DNA of 64,000 nucleotides from Nitzschia sp. DOCU1. Its lineage: Eukaryota; Bacillariophyta; Bacillariophyceae; Bacillariales; Bacillariaceae. Positions 31,342 to 56,981 of the stretch are shown here, one piece after another. The stretch lies in contig OX595993.1 in the NCBI GenBank assembly GCA_951394045.1, forward strand, positions 1 through 64,000, in the 5' to 3' direction. The stretch's first letter is position 1, and each line of letters begins with the position of its first letter. Under the pieces are notes generated by a model. That model ran no database searches. It was not told where the DNA came from and was given only the letters and a program-made list of their open reading frames with translations. Position numbers and translations under genes: made by a program.

Positions 31342-32032
31342 ATAATCAGTTGAATTGGCAACGCATCTTCAACAAAATGCATGTCTTATAACAATAATGA
31401 CTTTACATGAACGACTTTTTGACTTGTCGTGTGTATTGTTCATTGTCAATGCTCCATCCAGCGTTGCCTGTGTGGATCGAATTCTGCCATGGTCATTATT
31501 ATCATCATGGTCATCGTCGTCGTTGCCCGCCGATAGAAAGAAAAGATCGCGGGCGCCCAAAAAAGATACCAATGGCAAGATATGTATGTGGGTACCACAA
31601 ACTCGTGGTGGTGAACGTAGCTAAAGTCATTTCGCGATCAATGCAGAAGGCAATTTTGCTTTTTTTGACGATCCGGATGCGCGCGTCGGCCGAGGCGCCG
31701 CGTTAGTTTGACTGATCCGACTGTTCCAATACTTGCGACGATTCTGAATGATCCGTTCTACATTTACGAATATTCGGGAATGTCATTGTCTTTTGTGGTT
31801 CAAATGGCGGAGGCTTTTTCTATGTGTTGACATTCGCCTTCTCCAAACGACATTCTGCATTTGTTAGTCTACGCGAACTAATAAGTAAGCCTGCTCGCGG
31901 CAAAGTTGACTTTCAGTCCATCAGTCATTGTGAAGGCACGTGGGAACAGCAACGTTTCTGAATTACCTATAACTCTCTATACCGGTAGTAGAGAGTAGAC
32001 CACAACACCACGAAACATTAAAAGGGGAGTTG
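31342..32032. other. Spacer; 3' flank shared with the next copy
   Basis: Holds the 3' flank of the large gene. Parts of it (e.g. 31855-31945, with GCCTGCTCGCGGCAAA) recur after the tandem copy at about 34640-34725, so the duplication included the flank. It also carries the dispersed repeat at 31470-31640. Confidence 0.6.
31470..31640 (+). repeat. Dispersed repeat, inverted partner near 43 kb
   Basis: Matches the reverse complement of about 42990-43160 with scattered substitutions and small indels; both contain AAAAAAGATACCAATGGCAA and GTGGTGGTGAACGTAGCTAA. It lies shortly upstream of the tandem partial copy of the Cys-rich gene, and its partner lies right next to the aminopeptidase fragment. 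Confidence 0.75.
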
Positions 32033-35092: not shown

Positions 35093-38000
35093 CTATTTCA
35101 ATCCACGGTTGACAATTTCGTAGAGATCCTCCGAGATAGGTTTCATGGCCGCCAGCTTTTCGAGTTCAGCCTTCATTTGCGCACCACGCCCTTCGGAATA
35201 CTTGCGCCACTGAATAAGCGAGCTAGCGAGTCGAGACGAGATTTGAGGGTTCAGCTTGTCGATCTCTGCAAGGGTTTCGCCCAGGAACTTGTAGCCCTCG
35301 CCACTTTCGTCATGAAACGCTGTGTTCGTGGCAAAGGCGCCAATCAACGACCGACACCGATTCGGGTTCTTGAGTGTAAAGTCGGGGTGCCCTTTCAGTT
35401 TCTTGACACGATCCAAGATGTCAGGCAAGTCCGCCATGGCTTGTACGGTGAACCACTTGTTCAAAACCAACGCGTCTCCCTTGGCATCGTCATAAAACGT
35501 CTGAATAGCCTTGTCTCGGGCCGCCGCGCCTGCTCCATCCATGGAAGACAAAGCCGAAAGGGCTGCCATTTTGTCTGTCATGCCCGTGGCCTTTTCAAAA
35601 TGATTAGTAGCAAGTTGAGCGGCAGCCAGTTGTTCTTCGGGCGTTTCCTTGATGGAGCATAGATATTCCAAGCATACATTGCGGAGTCGTCGGCGCCCAA
35701 TGGAATCGGCGTCCACCTTGAAAACGTCTCCCTCGGCTTCCATTTCGGCCGTCAACTCATCATATCGTTCTTGCAACTCGTTCTTAAATTCGCGAGACAA
35801 GGACTGTTTGATGACTCCCCTCGCTTTCTTGATAGCAATCGGGTCGACGATTCCTTCCACAATCTCCGCCAATGTTCCTTCGGTCGGAAGCATCAAGGCA
35901 TACGCTAGAATGGAATAATCTTTTGAGTTCTTGTCTCCCAAGGTACGCCCGAAAGCCTCCTTGACGTATGCTAGAGTCTTGTCCGAAACGCCAGAGGCTA
36001 GTTGTTGGAAAATAGCCGTCGTGTAGAGTTTCTGGCCAGCATCCCACTTGTTGAATCCATCGGTGTCCCGAGCCGCCAAAAAGGCCAAGTCTTCTTCATT
36101 TTCGTCTCCCGAAGCAGGCATCAACTTGACTGGAGCCGAAAAATCGCGAAGAATGGATGGTACCACATCTCCCTTGACGTCAAATTCAAAAGTTTGCGTC
36201 TCTTTTGTCAATTCCAAAACGATAGTAGGAAGGACTTCCTCCCCAGTCTTCTTGTCCAGCAATCCCAGAGACACAGGAATGAGCAAGGGCGTTGCGCTGT
36301 TGGACTTTTGTGATAATGTCAAGGAAAATTTGCCATTGGAAGTTGCATACTCATATGTGACAATAGGAGTTCCATTGGTAGAATACCAAAGAGCAAATTG
36401 CGATAGGTCCTTGCCATTGGCGTCGGCCATGGCCGCCAAGAAATCATCGCATGTAACCGCTTGTCCATCATGGCGTTCAAAATACAAGTCCATGCCCTTG
36501 CGAAAGCCTTCTCGGCTCAACAAAGTCTGATACATGCGAATGACTTCAGATCCTTTGGTATAGACTGTGGCCGTGTAAAAGTTGTCCATGGAAATGCTAA
36601 AGGAGTAGAGGAAGAAACATTCGTGAGTATTTGTAGCCAAGAGTCAGGTCGAGAGTTCCATACGAATACATACTAGGAATCTGGTCGAATGGGATGACTC
36701 ATGGGTCCGGCATCTTCGGCAAACTGACGAGCTCGGAGTCCTCGAACATTTTCGATCCGATTGACAGCCTTGCTATTGAGATCGCCGCTGAATTCTTGAT
36801 CCCTAAAAACTGTCAGGCCCTCTTTGAGTGTCAATTGAAACCAATCGCGACAAGTGACACGATTGCCGGTCCAATTGTGAAAGTATTCATGTCCAATGAC
36901 GCCTTCTACTCGTTCAAAGTCGGTATCGGTCGCTGTTTCTTGATCGGCCAAAACATAGGCAGTATTAAAGACATTGAGGCCTTTATTTTCCATGGCACCC
37001 ATATTGAAATCATCCACTGCGACGACATTATAAATATCCAAATCGTATTCCAAACCAAATGTATCTTCATCCCATTTCATGCTTCGTTTGAGAGATTCCA
37101 TGGCATAACCCAGTTTGTGAACATTGTGCCGTTCACTAAAAATCTGCAATTGCACCTTGCGTCCACTAGGACGAGTCGTGTACGAGTCTTCAATCTTTCC
37201 CAAGTTGCCCGCCACACAACAAAACAAATAACTAGGCTTGGGGAAAGGGTCACTCCACACGGCATAGTGACGACCTTGATCGAGTTGACCTTGTTCTACC
37301 AAATTACCATTCGCCAGCAATACAGGATAATCTTGAGCAGACGCTTCCAATCGGACGCGGGTAAATGTAGCCATGTTATCCGGTCGATCTGGATAATACG
37401 TAATACGACGAAATCCCATGGCTTCACATTGGGTACAATACATGGTACCTGACTTGTACAGGCCACTGAGTTGCGTATTGTCTTCGGGGACCAATTCGAC
37501 GACCGTCCTAACTTGGAATTCTCCTGGGGGTAAATTCTTCAATGTCAACTTTCCAGGAGACAATACATATTGATCTTCTGTCAAATCTTTGCCATTGACT
37601 TGTAGTTTCAAGAGTTTGACACTCGTTTCATCCCCATCCAAGGTTAATTCTTGAGAACGGCTTCCTGAATAGTTTGGATTGGGCTGGCAGGTCATGATGG
37701 ATGTGACGGTCGTGGTTCCCTCGTAAATGACAAAATCCATTTCCATTGTTTTGACAGTGTAGGACAAGGGTTCGTAGTCGCTTCGAAAGATTTCGACGGG
37801 GGCGACTTCGGCACTTGCTACGGCGCTGTTAAGTGCCGTAGTAGACATGCTCGAAAGGCTTCCACCTCGCATACTAGTGGCCAGGGGATACAGCCCCCCA
37901 GCTCCCAGAAGTGCCGAAGAAAGTTTGGAAGGACCCGCCACACATTGTTGTTGTTGTTGTGCTGCACCTACTCGCATCAAGGAATAACTTGCCACCAAGG

Positions 38001-38124
38001 ATGACAATTCACGCCCCGTTCCACCACGTCGAAAGCTTAAAGGACGAAAGGCTCTGGAAGGACGATGATGAGCTGCAGCCGCCAGCCACAAAAACATGGA
38101 GACATGCTTGGCCGAGAACTTCAT
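35093..38124 (-). CDS. PepN-type M1 aminopeptidase, 2 exons
   Basis: Exons 38124-36674 and 36596-35093, intron 77 bp (GTATGT...TTAG), 984 aa. The junction gives HPIRPDSYISMDNFYT, matching bacterial PepN. The exopeptidase motif GAMENKGLNVFN is near residue 380, and the zinc motif HEYFH at about 412 is followed by the third ligand in LKEGLTV. It removes N-terminal amino acids from peptides. The first ~105 residues are not part of the catalytic fold: a hydrophobic start (MFLWLAAAAHH), an Arg/Ser-rich stretch and a Gln run, consistent with a plastid or secretory-type leader with an F after a short signal (RAFRPL), as in diatom plastid targeting. That localisation is inference. A rearranged inverted fragment lies at 43187-43932. 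Confidence 0.93.
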
Positions 38125-42989: not shown

Positions 42990-43160
42990 TCGACCAAAAG
43001 CAAAATGAACTTAGCTACGTTCACCACCACGATATGGTGGGACCCACATACATATCTTGCCATTGGTATCTTTTTTACTAGGCGCCCGCGATCTTTCTGA
43101 TCGGCGGCGACCACGACGACGATGACCATGATAATAATAATGACCATTGCAAAATTTCGA
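42990..43160 (-). repeat. Dispersed repeat, inverted partner of 31470-31640
   Basis: Reverse complement of the repeat near 31.5 kb; the match includes TTGCCATTGGTATCTTTTTT and TTAGCTACGTTCACCACCAC. It ends about 30 bp before the aminopeptidase fragment. Open frames on its minus strand are rich in Arg/His but do not form a known domain. Confidence 0.75.
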
Positions 43161-43186
43161 TCCACGCTCTTTGTAAGAACTGCTAC

Positions 43187-43932
43187 ATGATGGGCAAGCG
43201 GTCACATGTGATGATTTCTTGGCGGCTTGTCTCGCGAATTCAAGAACGAGTTGCAAGAACGATATGATGAGTTGACGGCCGAAATGGAAGCCGAGGGAGA
43301 CGTTTTCAAGGTGGACGCCGATTCCATTGGGCGCCGACGACTCCGCAATGTATGCTTGGAATATCTATGCTCCATCAAGGAAACGCCCGAAGAACAACTG
43401 GCTGCCGCTCAACTTGCTACTAATCATTTTGAAAAAGGCCACGGGCATGACAGACAAAATGGCAGGCCTATCGGCTTTGTCTTCCATGGATGGTGAAGGC
43501 GCGGACGCCCGCGAAAAGGCCATGCAGACGTTTTATGATGATGCCAAGGGGGACGCCTTGGTTTTGAACAAGTGGTTCACCGTACAAGCCATGGCGGACT
43601 TGCCTGACATCTTGGATCGTGTCAAGAAACTGAAAGAGCACCCCGACTTTACACTCAAGAACCCGAATCGGTGTCGGTCGTTGATTGGCGCCTTTGCCAC
43701 GAACACAGCGTTTCATGACGAAAGTGGCGAGGGCTACAAGTTCCTGGGCGAAACCCTTGCAGAGATCGACAAGCTGAACCCTCAAATCTCGTCTCGACTC
43801 GCTAGCTCGCTCATTCAGTGGTGCAAGTATTCCGAAGGGCGTGGTGCTCAAATGAAGGCTGAACATGAAAAGCTGGCGGCTATGAAACCTATTTCGGAGG
43901 ATCTCTATGAAATTGTCAACCGTACGTGTGGT
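43187..43932 (+). pseudogene. Rearranged fragment of the aminopeptidase gene
   Basis: Two pieces of the gene at 35093-38124, inverted relative to it. 43187-43226 matches the part encoding HDGQAVTCDDFLAA; it then jumps about 650 bp to LSREFKNELQER and runs to EDLYEIVN (43917), ending just before the parental stop. An extra A in a run near 43432 breaks the frame (parent EKATGMTDK). Identity elsewhere is very high, so the duplication is recent. No catalytic residues are present; surely non-functional as an enzyme. Confidence 0.9.
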
Positions 43933-44061
43933 GCGATTCCCTCTTCTAAACAAGTCTTTGATTACTGCAAATTACATTTTCGCCACTTCGTTCCGTAATC
44001 TACAAATTCGAATATTATCCAATTAGAACTCCCTCTGATTTCTATGAAGCTCTTCAATGTG

Positions 44062-44180
44062 TCGGCGTGGTCCGCGCCAAACTCCATCGTTTGCCACTCC
44101 AAACACTGCTTAAGCAATGCTCTTGTGCCATTCAAATAGCTGCGGCTGGTTCATAGTACACAAAGGATGGAACATCTTCA
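44062..44180 (-). pseudogene. Degenerate extra copy of a TPR segment
   Basis: Matches the part of the neighbouring TPR gene at about 44415-44540 (CLEWQTMELGADHADTLTTL and the preceding FVYFEIAAAIWM), but with a stop and frame shifts. It follows that gene's stop directly and looks like a decayed tandem repeat unit. Confidence 0.7.
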
Positions 44181-44181
44181 T

Positions 44182-45284
44182 CTAAAACAAAAGTTCCGCC
44201 TCGTCGTTCTTTCCTTGCGATTGGTAAAACAAAAGTTCCGCCTCTTCGTTCTTCCCTTGCGATTGGTAAAGCCTCACCAAATCATTCATTGCAGCCAATG
44301 TATCAGGGTGATCCTCTCCTAGCGTCTGCTTTTTCGTCTCCAAACACTGCAAGTACAAACTTTCAGCCGCGCTGTAAAGACTCGCCAAATTATTCAGTGT
44401 AGTCAATGTGTCGGCGTGGTCCGCGCCCAACTCCATCGTTTGCCATTCCAAACACTTCATAACCAGTGGTTCAGCCTTTTCGTATCGCTCTGGCGCCATC
44501 CAAATAGCTGCGGCTATCTCAAAGTAAACAAAGGATGGAAAATCTTCCAAGTTGATGCTACGGTGGTCCTCTGCTAATCTTGTAGCCATGGAAGCCACCC
44601 ATGATCGATACCGTTCGAACAGGACAGAGTCCAGTGATTCAAATCCAATCTCGTGTCGGATGACGTTGAATATGATGTTCTCCTTTTCACGGTTGTTGGT
44701 CGCTGTGCTTTTCTCCGCTCGAACAACCGCCAAAATGCTGTTAATAGTCCTTACCACTCCCAAAAATGACACATCGTTCAAGACTTGTTGTTCTTGCCAT
44801 TCTCCCAATGCGATTTCGAATCTCGCCCCAACCGAAATCGCACAGTAGGCCTGTGTAAGGCATGGGGGCATTCCACGGACTCATGACCATGACGACTCGC
44901 TGCCTTGAAGGTAGTGCTCAGCCAATCATAGCTCCATGCATGTTCGTTTTCGACATGCTGATTGATGGAAAATAAATCCCACCAAAGGACCACGGTATCC
45001 GTCTCTTTTTTTAAATGATGCGAAAGAGCGTCCACAACGTCCAAGAACCTGTAGCCAAACCAATGGGAGACAAAAACGTTTGGCTTTCCTACATGTGTAG
45101 TCTTGCCTTCGGTTCTTAACTTTTGGCAGTACGAAGTGTTTCTTGTTCCTCCCTTGGTGAAACGCTCAAGGACTTGCTGCGTCGTTAAGTTTCCGAGCTT
45201 ATTTCTGCCCCCACAAATCTTTGGAATGAAGTCCTCTACAATCCATTCAAGCTTAACACCATCGTATGGAAATTCAGCTGCCAT
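44182..45284 (-). pseudogene. TIR-like/TPR receptor-type gene, broken
   Basis: Reads from ATG 45284 (MAAEFPYDG). The N-terminal block has NVFVSHWFGYRFLDVVDAL, VVLWWDLFSINQH and WLSTTFKAA, the pattern of an alpha/beta domain common in algal proteins with kinesin-light-chain-type TPRs; its resemblance to TIR/toll-like folds is my inference. After FKAA, two frame changes occur within about 50 bp (the piece VVMVMSPWN is in a different frame from both sides), and about six residues are missing before CAISVGARFE. The second half, 44871-44182, continues open with KLC-type TPRs (LEWQTMELGADHADTLTTLNNLA and KKQTLGEDHPDTLAAMNDL) and ends in a 45-bp duplicated unit (YQSQGKN.EAELLF). TPRs normally bind partners or ligands. 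It starts head-to-head with the CHAT gene. Confidence 0.7.
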
Positions 45285-45599
45285 GGGACAGGGGTTTTTA
45301 CTAACGATATCTTCAAACGAAAACGCAATAGACGTTCCTCTATCAAAACCTTTACAAGGAAAGGACCCTACTTTGGATTTTGGAATCGACGAATGACGGT
45401 GGAAATTGCAGGTGAGAAAAATCGTTGATTGGTAGAAACGCAAGAGGTCTAAAATACTACAACTTATTAGCAACGGATTCTAACTCGTACGCTGGTCTGG
45501 TCGTTCCGCGAGAGTAGTCGCTTTTTCGGTCGTCCCCCCACACTGCATGAGATCTTTCACACAAATATTCTAATCGGGGAAAGTGAAACTGCTATCATC
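45285..45599. promoter_or_regulatory. Divergent promoter region between the two receptor-like genes
   Basis: 315 bp between ATG 45284 (minus) and ATG 45600 (plus). Being the only spacer for both genes, it must have held both promoters. I see no clear TATA box or repeat. Inferred from arrangement alone. Confidence 0.45.
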
Positions 45600-47629
45600 A
45601 TGCCAAGCGTAAAAATCTTCCAAGCTTCTCCCTTGGGATTTGAATACCCTAATGGAGTCTTTATCCCTTTCAAAAGCCTTGACCCGGTAGCCGAACGGGT
45701 CGCCATTACTAAAGCCTTGTAGAATACCAACCTGACACCTGATTTTGAAATTGCAACTATCGAAAGTTTGAGGCGTTTCAACACCGAGAAAGAACATGCA
45801 TTTCTTCACATTTCTTGCCATACCGTAACAGCCACCAGAGAAAATGACAAGACCGAGAAAAAAGAGCTTCATCTTGTGATTGAAAATTCTTTAGGTGGAG
45901 CCGTTCTTTGGTCAAAAACGCAAATTGCAGAGTGGATGGCTCAGAGAAGCCATGAGAGCAAGCTCGCGGTAGTATTTGTTGCAGCGTGTCGTTCCAGAGA
46001 GATTGGAGATTTTTTGTTGCCTCAGGCGTCAATTATGTTGTCTGCAGCAAAGAGCAGGAGCACGATTTACGTTCAATGGCTTCACGGATCTTTGCTGATC
46101 ATTTCTACCAGGCTAAAGCAAGAGGACACAGTGTCATAAATGCCTTCGATCATGCGTGTGCGGCGGTTAAAGAGTCGCAGGAGATGGAACAATCTGGAGT
46201 GGATGTAGCAGAAGAAGTTAAAAAGTTTGCACTGTCGCGAAAAGATGCTGAAAAATCAGAAACCATCAAGAGTAACAAGGACGACATCACTCCGTTCCCT
46301 CTGCTACCACCAAGTCCCCCTAAACATTTTTTTGGCCGGCAAAAGGAGATACATCAAATAGTGAAAGCCTTGGTTCATTCTGAAAAGGCACTTGTTGGAA
46401 TCAAAGGATGCCCTGGGATTGGAAAGAAGTCTTCGGCTCGAGCGGTCGGAGACTTTATGGTCTCGCACAAGTTTTGGGCCGAGGTAGTACTGTGGCTGCC
46501 TACGTTGATGCATCATTGTAATGTCAAGACCGAAGACTTGGCTACCGAGGGAGACATTAGGTGCTGCAGCCAGAGGCTTCTGGGTCGAATTGGCGGCAAG
46601 GCTCTCATAATGCTTGACACGAAAGGCTATGGAAAGAAGACTATAGAAAGGCTGGGAGCACTGGTGCAAAAATTGATTGAGGAAAACTGCCAAAGTGTCA
46701 AGGTCTTAGTTCTCTACACCGAGGATACTACAATGCATGTGTTCCAGACAGCTGAACTTGAAATTGTTTCTTTCGCTGAACTTGATTTTGAAAGCGGACT
46801 TGGCCTGTTCGCAAGACACTTGAATGCTGATGCTTGTAAAGCGATCCTCCAGCTGGGCACCAGGAACGTAAAAAAGGGACTCGAACTGACAAAACAGGTG
46901 TTGGGAAATGGGATTCCTGCCAAGACAATTTTTGCCGCAAAGAATATAACATTTCCACAATGCAAGGCGTTGCTCAGTGGAGAGCCGTCGGATGAAGTCT
47001 TTAAAGACTTATTGATGAAAATGGACAATGATTATCAAAAGATGCTACACCGAACTGTCCCACAATCTCAAGCAGAAGTGCAGGATCATTTTGGTCCTTT
47101 GTTAGAGAAAGAGAGCAGGGTCTATACAAAATCTGCGCCGGCATATCTCCGTCCAGCCAAAATGGGGGAAGTAATTACTACAGTCATCGGTGGGAAGAAA
47201 GAAACGGAATCGAAAGTCAAGGATGATGATTCATGGGTTGCACGTGGCATTTCTGGCGAATTTTACGTTTTGACAAAACCTGAATTCGAGAAGAGGTACG
47301 ACAAGGATGGCACACCGATCGATGGAAAGGATGCCGGCTCAAGCATTCGACATTTGCGCAAGGATGGGTTTTGGAGATACGAACCCAAACGTCAAAACGT
47401 TTTGGCTCACCAAATCAAAAAAGAGGACATGACGTGGTTTCGACATGGCCAAGATGTGTCGACCGATCAAGTACAAGCCACGCATTTCATCGCCCCATGG
47501 GGTGAAGGAGATTATTTGGTCAGGCTTCAAGGGAAAGCTGGTGATGGAATCTATCGCATCGAGCAGTTCACATTTGGAGAGACCTACAAGGAAGACAATG
47601 AACTTGGCGAGAAACCTCGGCGCCTCTGA
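45600..47629 (+). pseudogene. CHAT caspase-like + STAND-type NTPase, two lesions
   Basis: Reads from ATG 45600. Residues ~1-170 match the CHAT (caspase HetF-associated) peptidase: catalytic His in FLHISCH, catalytic Cys in VFVAACRS, then SGVNYVVCS and HDLRSMASRIFADHFY. Two lesions interrupt it: an in-frame TAG at 45720-45722 after KAL, and a one-base loss at the T run 46010-46015, after which the chain continues in another frame. From about 45986 to 47629 the frame is intact: a linker, FFGRQKEIHQI, a P-loop GCPGIGKKSS, Walker B-like ALIMLDTKG, and a C-terminal part with APWGEGDYLVR...YRIEQFTF that resembles the PGDYG family (tentative). The P-loop has Lys where Ser/Thr is usual after GK. CHAT+NTPase proteins act as death or defence proteases in bacteria and fungi. 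A 547-aa product lacking most of CHAT could still be made. Confidence 0.75.
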
Positions 47630-52053: not shown

Positions 52054-55000
52054 CTATTGTTCCGATGTACTTTCCCCTTGAGCAAGCGCCTTTTCTTTTT
52101 CTTCTTTCCAATACTCGACATTCGACGAGATAATGGGCAAAATCCTCTCTTCCACGAGATCTAAAATGGTGGCCAAAACTTCGTAGGCAGGCATGATCAC
52201 ATAAGCGATAAAGCCCAACTGCGAGTCGGGCTTTTTGGTTTTGGTACGGTCGCAGTTCGGAGAAATTGGGAGGCCCAATTTCAATTCTTTGTCGCCCTGG
52301 GCAAAGAATTCTTCCAAGCAACGGTCGGTCCACAGTTTGAACAGCGGATCGGGTTTGGCAGGATTCGATATATCTGCAACATGGAGGATGTAACAAAGAA
52401 TCTTCCACGACGATTCTTCGTCGCCAAACGATCGTTCACCACCTTCGCTATGACTCATCACGAGCGCCTTCATGGCGCTTACCGACGCAAAATGCTTGCT
52501 CATGTCTGTATGTAAGACAGCATCAATCATTTTGGCACGAATCGCCTTGAGTTGTTCGGGTGTTGCGTTGCATAAGGGATTCAACGGCGAAGCGCAACCA
52601 TGGTTGATATGCGACAGCCGCCGATTAGGCGTATTCCAGCCATGATCGTCCCCCAACATGACCTGAAACGCGTGAGAAATATGACGATTCTCCAAAATGG
52701 AGTGATCATTATACAGAAGGGCTAGATCCGTCCGAGCATTGGCTTGGAAAGAATTGTTTTCCCCGGGATGTTTGACATCGTGTACAGCGGCCGCCAGCAA
52801 AATGGCAAAAATGTCGAGTTTGGTGGTTGGGAAAGAGTCTCCAATCATTTGAATCAACGTGTGGACCGTCTGAACAACATCTGCTGCATGAATTTGGTTA
52901 TGGTAACTGTGGAATTGCGGCCAACGTTAGGAACGAAGGATATACAAACATGCTCAACGTTCCTCCATACTTACGGGTTCGTTTCCTTGTAGTCTTGTTC
53001 AATGACACGCAAATAGTCGCATAGTTGCTCGGCAGGAACCCTCAACGTCTCGTCGGCAAAGTTGTAGCCTCGTAGTTCATCCAATTGAATCATGACGCCA
53101 CAATGACGGCCCATAGAATATTGTGCATGTGGAGACCCCAATATGGCCCATCCCACGAACAAGAGTGGATTCTTGCCGTTTGTCAACTCCAACAAATCAA
53201 AGACATTGAATTCCCACCTCTTGAGAGACGACCACGAGAGCAGGCGAAAGAGGCGCATTTGGTTTTCACGGGGCAAGGCCATGAATTCTGGAAGGACGTA
53301 TTCCAACAAGTCGCTCTCGAACTCTTCGCTCTTAAGATATCCTCCAAAAGTCGGCTTGGCCAACTCTCCTGTAGCGGTTGCGATAGTGGGAGAAAAGCCA
53401 CCAAATTCTTTCAGAATGTAGCGGGCGGTTTCGGAAATCTGACCAATCGGCTGGAGGCCCTTTTTGAGGACATGCATCGATTGGTTGACTCCCTGTAGAG
53501 CTTTTTTACGTAGCAAGTGCAGAGGCAAATGCAACAACTGGCCTTGTTTGGCATCGCCTTGCTGCATTAGCAAAACTTTGATACTTTCTAATTGCTCTCG
53601 CGTTTTGTCTGACAGGAGCGCGATACTTCGCTCTGGCTCGTCTTCGCCACCTTCATTGGGTGGTTTCGGATTCAAGAGTTCGTTGATGGTCGCCACGGCC
53701 TGATCCCATTGAGAAGTCGTTTGACTGCCCCGACGAAATCCCGCCGGTCGCAAGGATATCTTTCGAATCGTTGACAAGAATTGACCCGACAAATCCTCTT
53801 CGTCCGCCACAACATCGGTTTGCCTTTCTTTTCGCAACTTGGCCTTTTCTCGAGAATACTTCCACTGACTAAATATTTTCGGAAAGAAAATGACTCCCAA
53901 AATGGCCATGTCTGGAAGACAAATACAAACTGTCATTACGATATGAATGCCAGATGGCGAATCTCTCACAGCCACAAGTAAAGGCACCCCAATGACAAAG
54001 GTTTCCACCATGACGACAAGGGCGATGGAAATGTATTTGGATTCTTGAAATTTGTTTCCCATGTGACGAACTTTGACCAACAAATACGTCGTCAAGACCA
54101 TGAGTAAGACATGAAAACCCAAAATGGGACCAAAAAAGGCCCATACGGATACCCCATCCGGATCTGAAGCACGACAACGTCCGACAGTTTCAATCGTCAG
54201 GACTCCCGTATCGGGATCAATAGTAGCACCCATTTCTTCTCGTTCATACTGTAGCACAGAGAGGAGGGAGGACAGCGTCAGACCAGGTTCGTTCTACGAG
54301 ACATGGGTCATTATCTCAAACAAACTTACCACCAAAGGATTGACCAGCGTCAAGGCCAAGACAAAGGCCACATCCACCAAGACAGCCTTGACTACCAATT
54401 GAAAAAAGCGACAAAAGGATATATCCGGCGCTTCTGACTCTTCGTTCCTTTGTTCTTGGTCTTCTTGTGGCTGCTCTTCTTTTATGGGTGGTTGCGGATC
54501 TGAATTTGTAATGACTTCCTCACGAGTAGCAGTTTTTTCAGCTACCAAACTCAATCGACTCTTGGTAGACAAGGCCGACATGATACTCATGCGACTTCGT
54601 GTCGACGAAGCCATGCTCATTCGACTGCGTGTCGACGATGCCATGCTCATTCGACTGCGTGTCGATGAAGCCATGCTTATGCGACTTCCACCAGCCGACG
54701 ACGCCATGCTCCATCGAGGACTGTTGTTGGACAAGAGGATACCCTTGGTACTTTGTTGTTGTTGTTGTGGAGGCGGCGGCGATGACGACGAGGATGCCAT
54801 GCTCACTCGATGATTGTTGGTCAGCATACTCTTGGTACTTTGTCGTGGCAAAGTTGATTTCCCAGCCACTGCCACGGACAATCGTGGCGAACCTTTGGCT
54901 TGCTGCTGCTGTGACGATTGTGTCTTGATTTCATCATCCTTATCGTCTTGTTGTTGTTCTTCTACTGGCGCATACTGTTTGATTTTGTAAAGTCGATAGG

Positions 55001-56846
55001 TCTTGACACTGAGACTGGCATATTGCAAAACCCATCCAATGGAATATAAAAAGGGTGCGACTTGACAGCCACGCGTGTCTTCAAAGGACAAGGCCAAGAC
55101 TGTACTGCTGGAACAAATGGCGCCGACACAAATCAAGGCCAGATATTCCCATTGAGAGACTTGAACGACTGTAGAATGAGAATTGTAAATCATCCATACC
55201 AAGCACGACAAGGACATGAACCAGCTCAATGCCACTACGACAATTCCCAAACTCCAAGCACTGTAGGATAAATCCGTGGAATCATCTTGTGCGATACAAT
55301 AGGATTGTCCTGCAGTCGAAGTACTGCCATCAGGACAAGGTGTGCATTTCACGTCTGAATTTTCATTTTGAGAATACGTGTTGGGAGGACAAGGTTGACA
55401 TGCCCATGCCAGCAAGGACGTGCGTGCCGAGGTATTCCAATATTCACCAGCCGAACAATTAAGAGCCGACGGGGCCGGAATCATCCATGCCGCTTGAGCT
55501 TGCCACAATGGAGCCACCAAGACATTTTGTAACTGTTGCGTGTTGTTTGCCATAATCATGGGTAACCATTGAGTACTTGCCGCAGCAGGACGACCCTTGT
55601 TTTGGAGTGTGACGGAATCCAAATGAAAAGGACCCAACAAGGTTTCCGTCGTTTGAAATTTCGCCAAGGAATCTCGATAATTATTTTGGGTAGTAGTGTC
55701 CATGCTTTCATAATGTTCCGCCAATATCATGACCGTCACATAACTCACTACCATGTCCGCATCGACGTTGGGATATTCGGGACCCAAGGTCGCTTGAACA
55801 TGATCCACAAATTCCAACGAATTGGCAAAATACACATCCGAATACATCATGCTGGCATGCCATTGACTACCACTAGACCAATATGCCATGTTGTTCGTGT
55901 CCTGAACTGGCGTACTACTCCACAATGACAAGGGTTGACAATCTGGCAATTGCATCCATGCTTGCTCCAACGTTTGCGTATCTGCCGCAGACGCACAAAC
56001 TACCAGAGCGACATTCTCCCGACAGGATTCTTGTGCCAAACTTGTCAAATTAGTCAAAGAAGTATTCCACTGGTAAACTTGTACGGGCAGAAACTCGTCA
56101 TGCACCAAATCCTGATAGCGCCTCAAAGCCGATTGACAAATGGAAGCATATTCGTGAGCATCATACAAGATTGCCAAGTGTGCAGTCGCAAATGTTCGAG
56201 AATACAAGACAAATGACAGTGCTTGCATATACGCCAAGGGATACAAATCACTCGAAATGGGCACGCCCAATACATAGGGTTGCCCACTGTAAAAGGCGGG
56301 AGTATCGACCGAACTCAACAGAGGAACTTGATACTCTTGAGCGATGGGAACTTCTAGAGCGGCAACCAGTGGACAAGTACCCACAATGGCTACTGCTTGT
56401 TGCGTCGTTGTAGTGTTGTTGCGACTCTTTTCGAGCAACTCTTGCAAGACTTGACCGTGTTGCTCGGCATAATTGTTGGTAGACTTGCTAGATCCCGCAA
56501 TGACAGACACATAACTCATGGTAGTAGTATTATGCAATGACAATAAATGGACTGCCACACTTGCACCATCTCGAGTAGTACCACATTCAGCAGGTGTGAC
56601 TTGTAGTAGAGTCAGGCCTGGACTGTTGGATAGAAACGTCGATGAAAGGATGCAGGGAAATTCATCTGCTGGCGACGTCGTCGTTGCGAATTCAAGACTT
56701 GTCAGTGAACAAGCCGGCCATGACAAGTCTAATTGCCGGGGATTCAAAGCAGTGACACATAAAGTGCTGCTGCTGCTGCTAAATGCCATGACCAGCCAAC
56801 CGCAGCCTCTGGGGACGAAGGATGACCTTGGCCGTCGGCGTTTCAT
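52054..56846 (-). CDS. Class C GPCR fused to cyclic-nucleotide phosphodiesterase
   Basis: Exons 56846-54330, 54248-52975 and 52906-52054; introns 81 and 68 bp, both restoring frame (NPLV-YEREE and NP-YHNQIH). About 1547 aa; an upstream in-frame ATG at 56981 would add 45. Order: signal-like start; extracellular periplasmic-binding/ANF-type domain (about 25-460); a Cys-rich linker (CPPNTYSQN, CTPCPDGS); seven hydrophobic helices as in GABA-B-like receptors, with a ~170-residue Ser/Gln-rich insertion in a loop; a cytosolic linker; then a class I phosphodiesterase domain with YHNQIHAADV, AVHDVKHPG, HTDMSKHF and HVADISNPAKP, which carry the metal ligands. It would let an extracellular ligand control cAMP/cGMP breakdown directly. 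A 3' fragment is duplicated at 48005. Confidence 0.88.
54590..54700 (-). repeat. 30-bp coding repeats in the receptor loop
   Basis: Three to four tandem 10-residue units of the type RMSMASSTRS within the intracellular insertion of the GPCR-PDE. RxS and SxR contexts look like basophilic kinase sites. Copy number may vary between alleles. Confidence 0.8.
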
Positions 56847-56981
56847 TTTTGTGGTCGTTGTGTCAGTCTTCTCGTTCTGGATCGTTCCCAGAACTGACTG
56901 GGGGTATTGACTACTGTTGCTGCTGCAGTTTCTGTCGTCAATGAGATTGCTAGTAGCTACGGTAGTGATTGTAGCATGCAA

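Follow-up and report, generated by a model that had tools for sequence, protein, structure and literature searches.

Two damaged genes back to back on a Nitzschia contig

The start of contig OX595993.1 (C9) of the diatom Nitzschia sp. DOCU1 raises the question of whether two adjacent, divergent genes form a paired immune-receptor module or are damaged copies that came to lie side by side. We analysed positions 1-64000 of this contig (64,000 nucleotides, hereafter the window), which belongs to a genome of 63 contigs and 52.1 Mb. The plus-strand gene (45600-47629) combines a caspase-like CHAT protease domain with a P-loop nucleoside triphosphatase (NTPase), and the minus-strand gene (45284-44182) combines an alpha/beta block with kinesin light chain (KLC)-type tetratricopeptide repeats (TPRs). 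A first-pass annotation of the sequence had proposed that they are a sensor/helper pair. The joint explanation we favour, with some reserve, is that the locus is an island of dead copies and that intact members of the CHAT-NTPase family act as receptors resembling nucleotide-binding leucine-rich repeat proteins (NLRs).

The divergent arrangement was confirmed, with start codons at 45600 (+) and 45284 (-) facing away from each other across 315 bp. The damage noted earlier in both genes was also found, as a TAG codon and a frameshift in the plus gene and a frame break together with a truncated, duplicated TPR array in the minus gene (Table 1).

Table 1. Features of the damaged locus (positions in the window) and the basis of their assignment.
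Feature	Position	Strand	Basis
Truncated inverted copy of the M1 aminopeptidase gene (35096-38124)	43186..43998	+	sequence identity
Rearranged TPR/linker debris, a displaced partial duplicate of 44403-44547 (76.6% identical)	44054..44179	-	
Alpha/beta block, second part, with linker and truncated KLC-type TPRs, in another frame	44182..44871	-	profile and alignment
Alpha/beta block, first part (TIR/HET-like by motif only)	44898..45284	-	alignment to relatives
5' CHAT part, with catalytic His in HISCHT and Cys in AACRS	45600..46022	+	profile and relative alignment
3' CHAT part, in a different frame	46007..46279	+	PF12770 profile 216-271
STAND/NB-ARC-like P-loop NTPase	46280..47053	+	motifs and alignment; fold of the C15 relative
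C-terminal module, single copy, of the type repeated in C15, C9b and C11b	47054..47590	+	alignment

The plus gene is a decayed CHAT-NTPase

The ATG at 45600 opens the frame that reads into CHAT. An in-frame TAG (45720-45722) interrupts it, and near 46010 comes a frameshift, after which the gene is open in another frame up to a stop at 47627-47629. CHAT was the best Pfam match of each of the two frame-shifted halves, and the two matches are collinear on the profile (PF12770, curated cut-off 24 bits), though both fall under the cut-off (5' half, profile 130-200, 15.3 bits, E 0.014; 3' half, profile 216-271, 13.9 bits, E 0.037). In the longer raw open reading frames CHAT was absent from the Pfam matches at E<=1. 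Because the pieces are sub-threshold and the raw frames have no match, the identification of CHAT, already made in the first-pass annotation, relies on the closest relative: C15:495487-497124 shares 63% and 56% identity with the two parts in the window, and its CHAT match, at 44.3 bits, is over the cut-off. The HISCH and AACRS motifs align with the catalytic His and Cys columns, as the annotation had read them, and the window copy thus keeps both residues.

The fusion to a P-loop NTPase was likewise borne out. A Walker A motif, GCPGIGKK, lies at 46406-46429, with Lys instead of Ser/Thr at its eighth position and hence outside the canonical GxxxxGK[ST]; it is followed by an acidic Walker B-like ALIMLDTK and a GNGIP (GxP) motif. 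The window NTPase matched nSTAND1 at 16.3 bits (E 0.0079), under the cut-off of 27.1 bits, and in the profile search none of NB-ARC, NACHT and nSTAND1 exceeded its cut-off in the window copy. No leucine-rich repeat (LRR) was among its Pfam matches. The C-terminal module occurs once in the window copy and matched at least two places in C15, C9b and C11b. By eye, C15 has a likely GTAAGT...CAG intron (495484 region), which is absent from the corresponding positions of the window copy (47243-47250) and C9b.

The plus gene, now decayed, belongs to a family with a common core of CHAT protease domain and STAND-like NTPase. The family has at least 11 loci: the window copy, C9b, C15, C11a, C11b, C6, C10, C5a, C5b, C5c and C7 (C3-C16 denote contigs of this genome and a, b and c separate CHAT-NTPase loci on one contig). 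This count and that of the TPR family below are lower bounds, as the genome search scores the best candidates only. In the same genome the silicon-transporter family gave 18 exon-level matches over cut-off, in support of the diatom origin suggested by the first-pass annotation. CHAT exceeded its cut-off in the genome profile search at 9 of the 11 loci, the exceptions being C5c and the broken window copy; C5b scored 25.9 bits there and 23.2 bits, under the cut-off, in a second search. Core identities to C15 range from 23 to 39%. The His-Cys dyad is present in the window copy and seven other loci, and one or both residues are lost in C5a, C5b and C5c.

Among the 10 loci outside the window, NB-ARC, NACHT or nSTAND1 exceeded the cut-off at two, C11a (NB-ARC 26.6 bits, nSTAND1 33.1 bits) and C7 (NACHT 33.0 bits, nSTAND1 33.7 bits), and not at the other eight. 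For the predicted NTPase fold of the C15 relative, the top alignments were to plant NB-ARC and archaeal ATPases, and AAA+ proteins ranked only slightly lower. Ser/Thr occupies the eighth Walker A position at 4 of the 11 loci, one of which (C7) has GR for GK.

Around the core, several architectures were found: the CHAT-NTPase core alone, the core with C-terminal modules, the core with N-terminal LRRs, and LRR-CHAT-NTPase-macro. LRRs occur at five loci. At C7, CHAT, NACHT/nSTAND1 and LRR_6 all exceed their cut-offs within one open frame, and at C11a CHAT, NB-ARC/nSTAND1 and LRR do so split over two frames. In the C5 trio the LRR is over cut-off and the NTPase is assigned by alignment; these three LRR-CHAT-NTPase-macro-like genes are neighbours (C5:3326354-3342838), with frames of 1516, 1467 and 1462 aa, the middle one on the opposite strand.

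Some further features of the family were seen by eye or in passing. C9b (C9:65676-69704) and C11b (C11:1432649-1436626) carry two C-terminal modules, a hydrophobic stretch and a degenerate metalloprotease-like end (by eye), and C11b has one in-frame stop and adjoins a copia-type polyprotein frame (by eye). The C-terminal module also matched at C13:328119-328331, where no CHAT or NTPase match is listed. Further NB-ARC matches over cut-off lie at C4:1006952, C9:1065089, C1:1910687, C2:87709 and C6:159204.

The minus gene belongs to a separate family

The minus gene, also decayed, comes from a different family, whose alpha/beta-TPR loci are dispersed and number at least eight: the window copy, three open genes on C6, a broken one at C6:3477k, and one each on C3, C16 (with one in-frame TGA) and C7. 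Its first ATG is at 45284, and its true start is uncertain because similarity to one relative extends back to 45311. The first part is 68-71% identical to three relatives over 126-142 aligned columns. The frame break falls between 44898 and 44862, within a block that bears a SPWxxPxPxxRAWCxFE motif invariant in all five relatives aligned. The KLC-type TPRs reported earlier were recovered by Pfam (TPR_12 67.7 bits, TPR_10 58.8 bits), in a short, truncated array that contains a 42-nt duplication. No NTPase domain was among the Pfam matches listed for the TPR protein. The NLR/STAND-like combination of protease and NTPase switch proposed for the pair is supported for the plus gene's family. Among the relatives, C6:3558388-3562725 has two tandem alpha/beta blocks, the first degenerate, and is adjoined by two near-identical Sel1-like frames (named by eye).

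The first-pass annotation had called the N-terminal block TIR-like, and our searches gave this no support. TIR_2 (PF13676) had no match anywhere in this genome, while the same control search was positive in 4 of 14 genomes; HET (PF06985) had no match in this genome, and the control genomes were likewise silent. In the Pfam listings at E<=5 for four relatives, the N-terminal block matched neither a TIR nor a HET family. A sequence search of the PDB with the block returned one row, an unrelated phage collar protein (E 0.73), and the AlphaFold model of the block had a mean pLDDT of 42, unusable for fold. The WxDLFSxNQH and RAWCxFE motifs are what we take to be reminiscent of HET and TIR. Beyond the frame break, the window reads CLTQAYC where the C6:1388k relative reads CVFEAYC; the Glu of the latter, catalytic in TIR enzymes, would be Gln in the window copy. 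The likeness to the fungal HET domain and to TIR lies in motifs, and the block differs from both in having no profile match; we treat it as alpha/beta and, by motif, as a TIR/HET-like candidate. According to PMC4986451, stramenopiles have homologues of HET, and HET is similar to TIR.

No second pair among the known loci

Among the 11 CHAT-NTPase and 8 TPR-family loci known in this genome, the window pair is the only case of adjacency. Around the 10 CHAT-NTPase loci outside the window, no known member of the TPR family lies closer than 20 kb: C9b is separated by 20 kb from the broken TPR gene in the window, on C7 and C6 the separation is 199 kb and 833 kb, and for seven CHAT loci the contig carries no known member of the TPR family. 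The first-pass annotation had named homologues that are never neighbours as an outcome that would refute the pair, and within this genome that is the outcome obtained. The neighbour on the other side of the minus gene is also a fragment. Positions 43226-43923 are 96.6% identical, in inverted orientation, to 35105-35801, the 3' part of the aminopeptidase gene. Three unrelated damaged genes thus stand side by side, and the site therefore looks like one that collects copies, not like a working module. We conclude that the locus is most likely an island of dead gene copies, with window copies that have no function, and that the back-to-back position of the two is probably accidental.

A co-regulated sensor/helper receptor pair that was recently inactivated here would account for the 315 bp divergent spacing, and under uniform random placement only 0.0017 CHAT/TPR pairs within 500 bp would be expected. 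The adjacency is indeed unusual, yet it is one case picked after being noticed, and the expectation was computed after that. With the other ten CHAT-NTPase loci never pairing with any of the other seven TPR-family loci, with the C15 relative standing head to head with a calpain-like frame instead (named by eye), and with an aminopeptidase fragment showing that copies collect here, we consider such a pair very improbable. Intact genes, with introns or assembly errors behind the apparent stops and frameshifts, are also improbable. The break near 46010 coincides with a T run and the one near 44865 with a G run, both typical sites of long-read error, and the likely intron of C15 would fit this explanation, but it would have to accommodate a nonsense codon and several breaks within 2.8 kb, a TPR array that is truncated and shuffled, and fewer C-terminal modules than in the relatives, while other frames of the window and the family are open for >1,400 codons.

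A dead-copy island leaves the question of what the intact CHAT-NTPase members do. They are best read as NLR-like receptors with a built-in protease, some of them now pseudoproteases, with a presumed immune function. The sensor part (LRRs at five loci, the repeated C-terminal module at others) would keep the NTPase at rest; a ligand or damage would cause a nucleotide-linked rearrangement and assembly of the NTPase, which would cluster and activate the CHAT protease, and the active protease would cut a target, perhaps triggering cell death. The three C5 proteins could be regulators, or could signal without proteolysis, because they have lost catalytic residues while keeping the LRR, NTPase and macro-like parts. 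A bolder version, to which we give slightly less than an even chance, is a diatom-own NLR-like family that fuses LRRs, a CHAT protease, a STAND switch and a macro-like domain into a contracted inflammasome, with dead tandem paralogues as decoys or regulators and broken copies as birth-and-death debris. The degenerate P-loops of many members call for caution, as several of the proteins may bind nucleotide and fail to hydrolyse it, or may not bind it. They also fit, together with the lost catalytic residues and a divergence unlike that of recent hypervariable copies, a non-immune role in which the NTPase is a structural scaffold and the family serves regulated cell death (nutrient stress, sexual cycle) or signalling within the cell. 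We regard this role as possible but on the doubtful side, as the combination of LRR, STAND-like and caspase-like parts, the C5 tandem array and the pseudogene resemble receptor families.

Relation to known systems

Diatoms are major primary producers of the ocean, and to our knowledge little has been established about their intracellular detection of bacteria and viruses. In this diatom, the CHAT-STAND family represents a genuine variant form of NLR-like protein. It shares with plant and animal NLRs an NB-ARC/NACHT-class NTPase, LRRs and a death-type effector domain, and differs in that the LRRs lie N-terminal to both effector and NTPase, a CHAT protease takes the place of the effector, and in the C5 trio a macro-like domain comes after them. 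Fungal CHAT proteases, in NLRs or fused to TPRs, activate gasdermins, as described in the available text of PMC12881547 and PMC10197012. The fungal NLRs described there likewise fuse a caspase-like CHAT effector to an NLR-type NTPase; the repeats given for them are WD40, TPR or ANK, whereas the diatom family has N-terminal LRRs or the C-terminal module and sometimes a macro domain. A search of the diatom for a gasdermin partner, which had no positive control, identified none. Brown algae have NB-ARC-TPR and LRR-ROCO candidate immune receptors (PMC11378527); these too are stramenopile candidates, and differ in that the available text of that source does not mention CHAT for them.

With respect to bacterial STAND and CHAT defence (SAVED-CHAT, CRISPR-associated caspase-like proteins, Avs), the C15 core, C5b and C7 differ in having no PADLOC match; the C11a NTPase matched seven PADLOC models weakly (best E 8.5e-6, 23.5 bits). 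A bacterial or viral origin found no support: peptide-pattern scans of GTDB (core) and IMG/VR (core and TPR-family block), which detect only relatives sharing the short patterns, found no whole-core relative, and the GTDB scan gave a single 40-residue match, around the NTPase start, in a Paramagnetospirillum contig. In the open-licence literature, a scope that excludes subscription papers and preprints, no diatom CHAT-STAND protein was among the matches listed. The C5, C7, C11a and C15 loci are named, open genes in which the protease-NLR idea can be tested; if it is true, a photosynthetic protist would join fungi and bacteria as a bearer of contracted protease-NLR receptors. The locus in the window matters only as a sign that such copies arise and get lost.

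Other features of the window

The inverted duplicate at 43000-43998, made up of aminopeptidase and nearby sequence, is recent and internally gapped, and includes smaller pieces similar to 36432-36472 (92.7%) and 31472-31635 (85.9%). On the minus strand, 52974-56981 holds a class C G-protein-coupled receptor-like gene or genes (7tm_3 matches).
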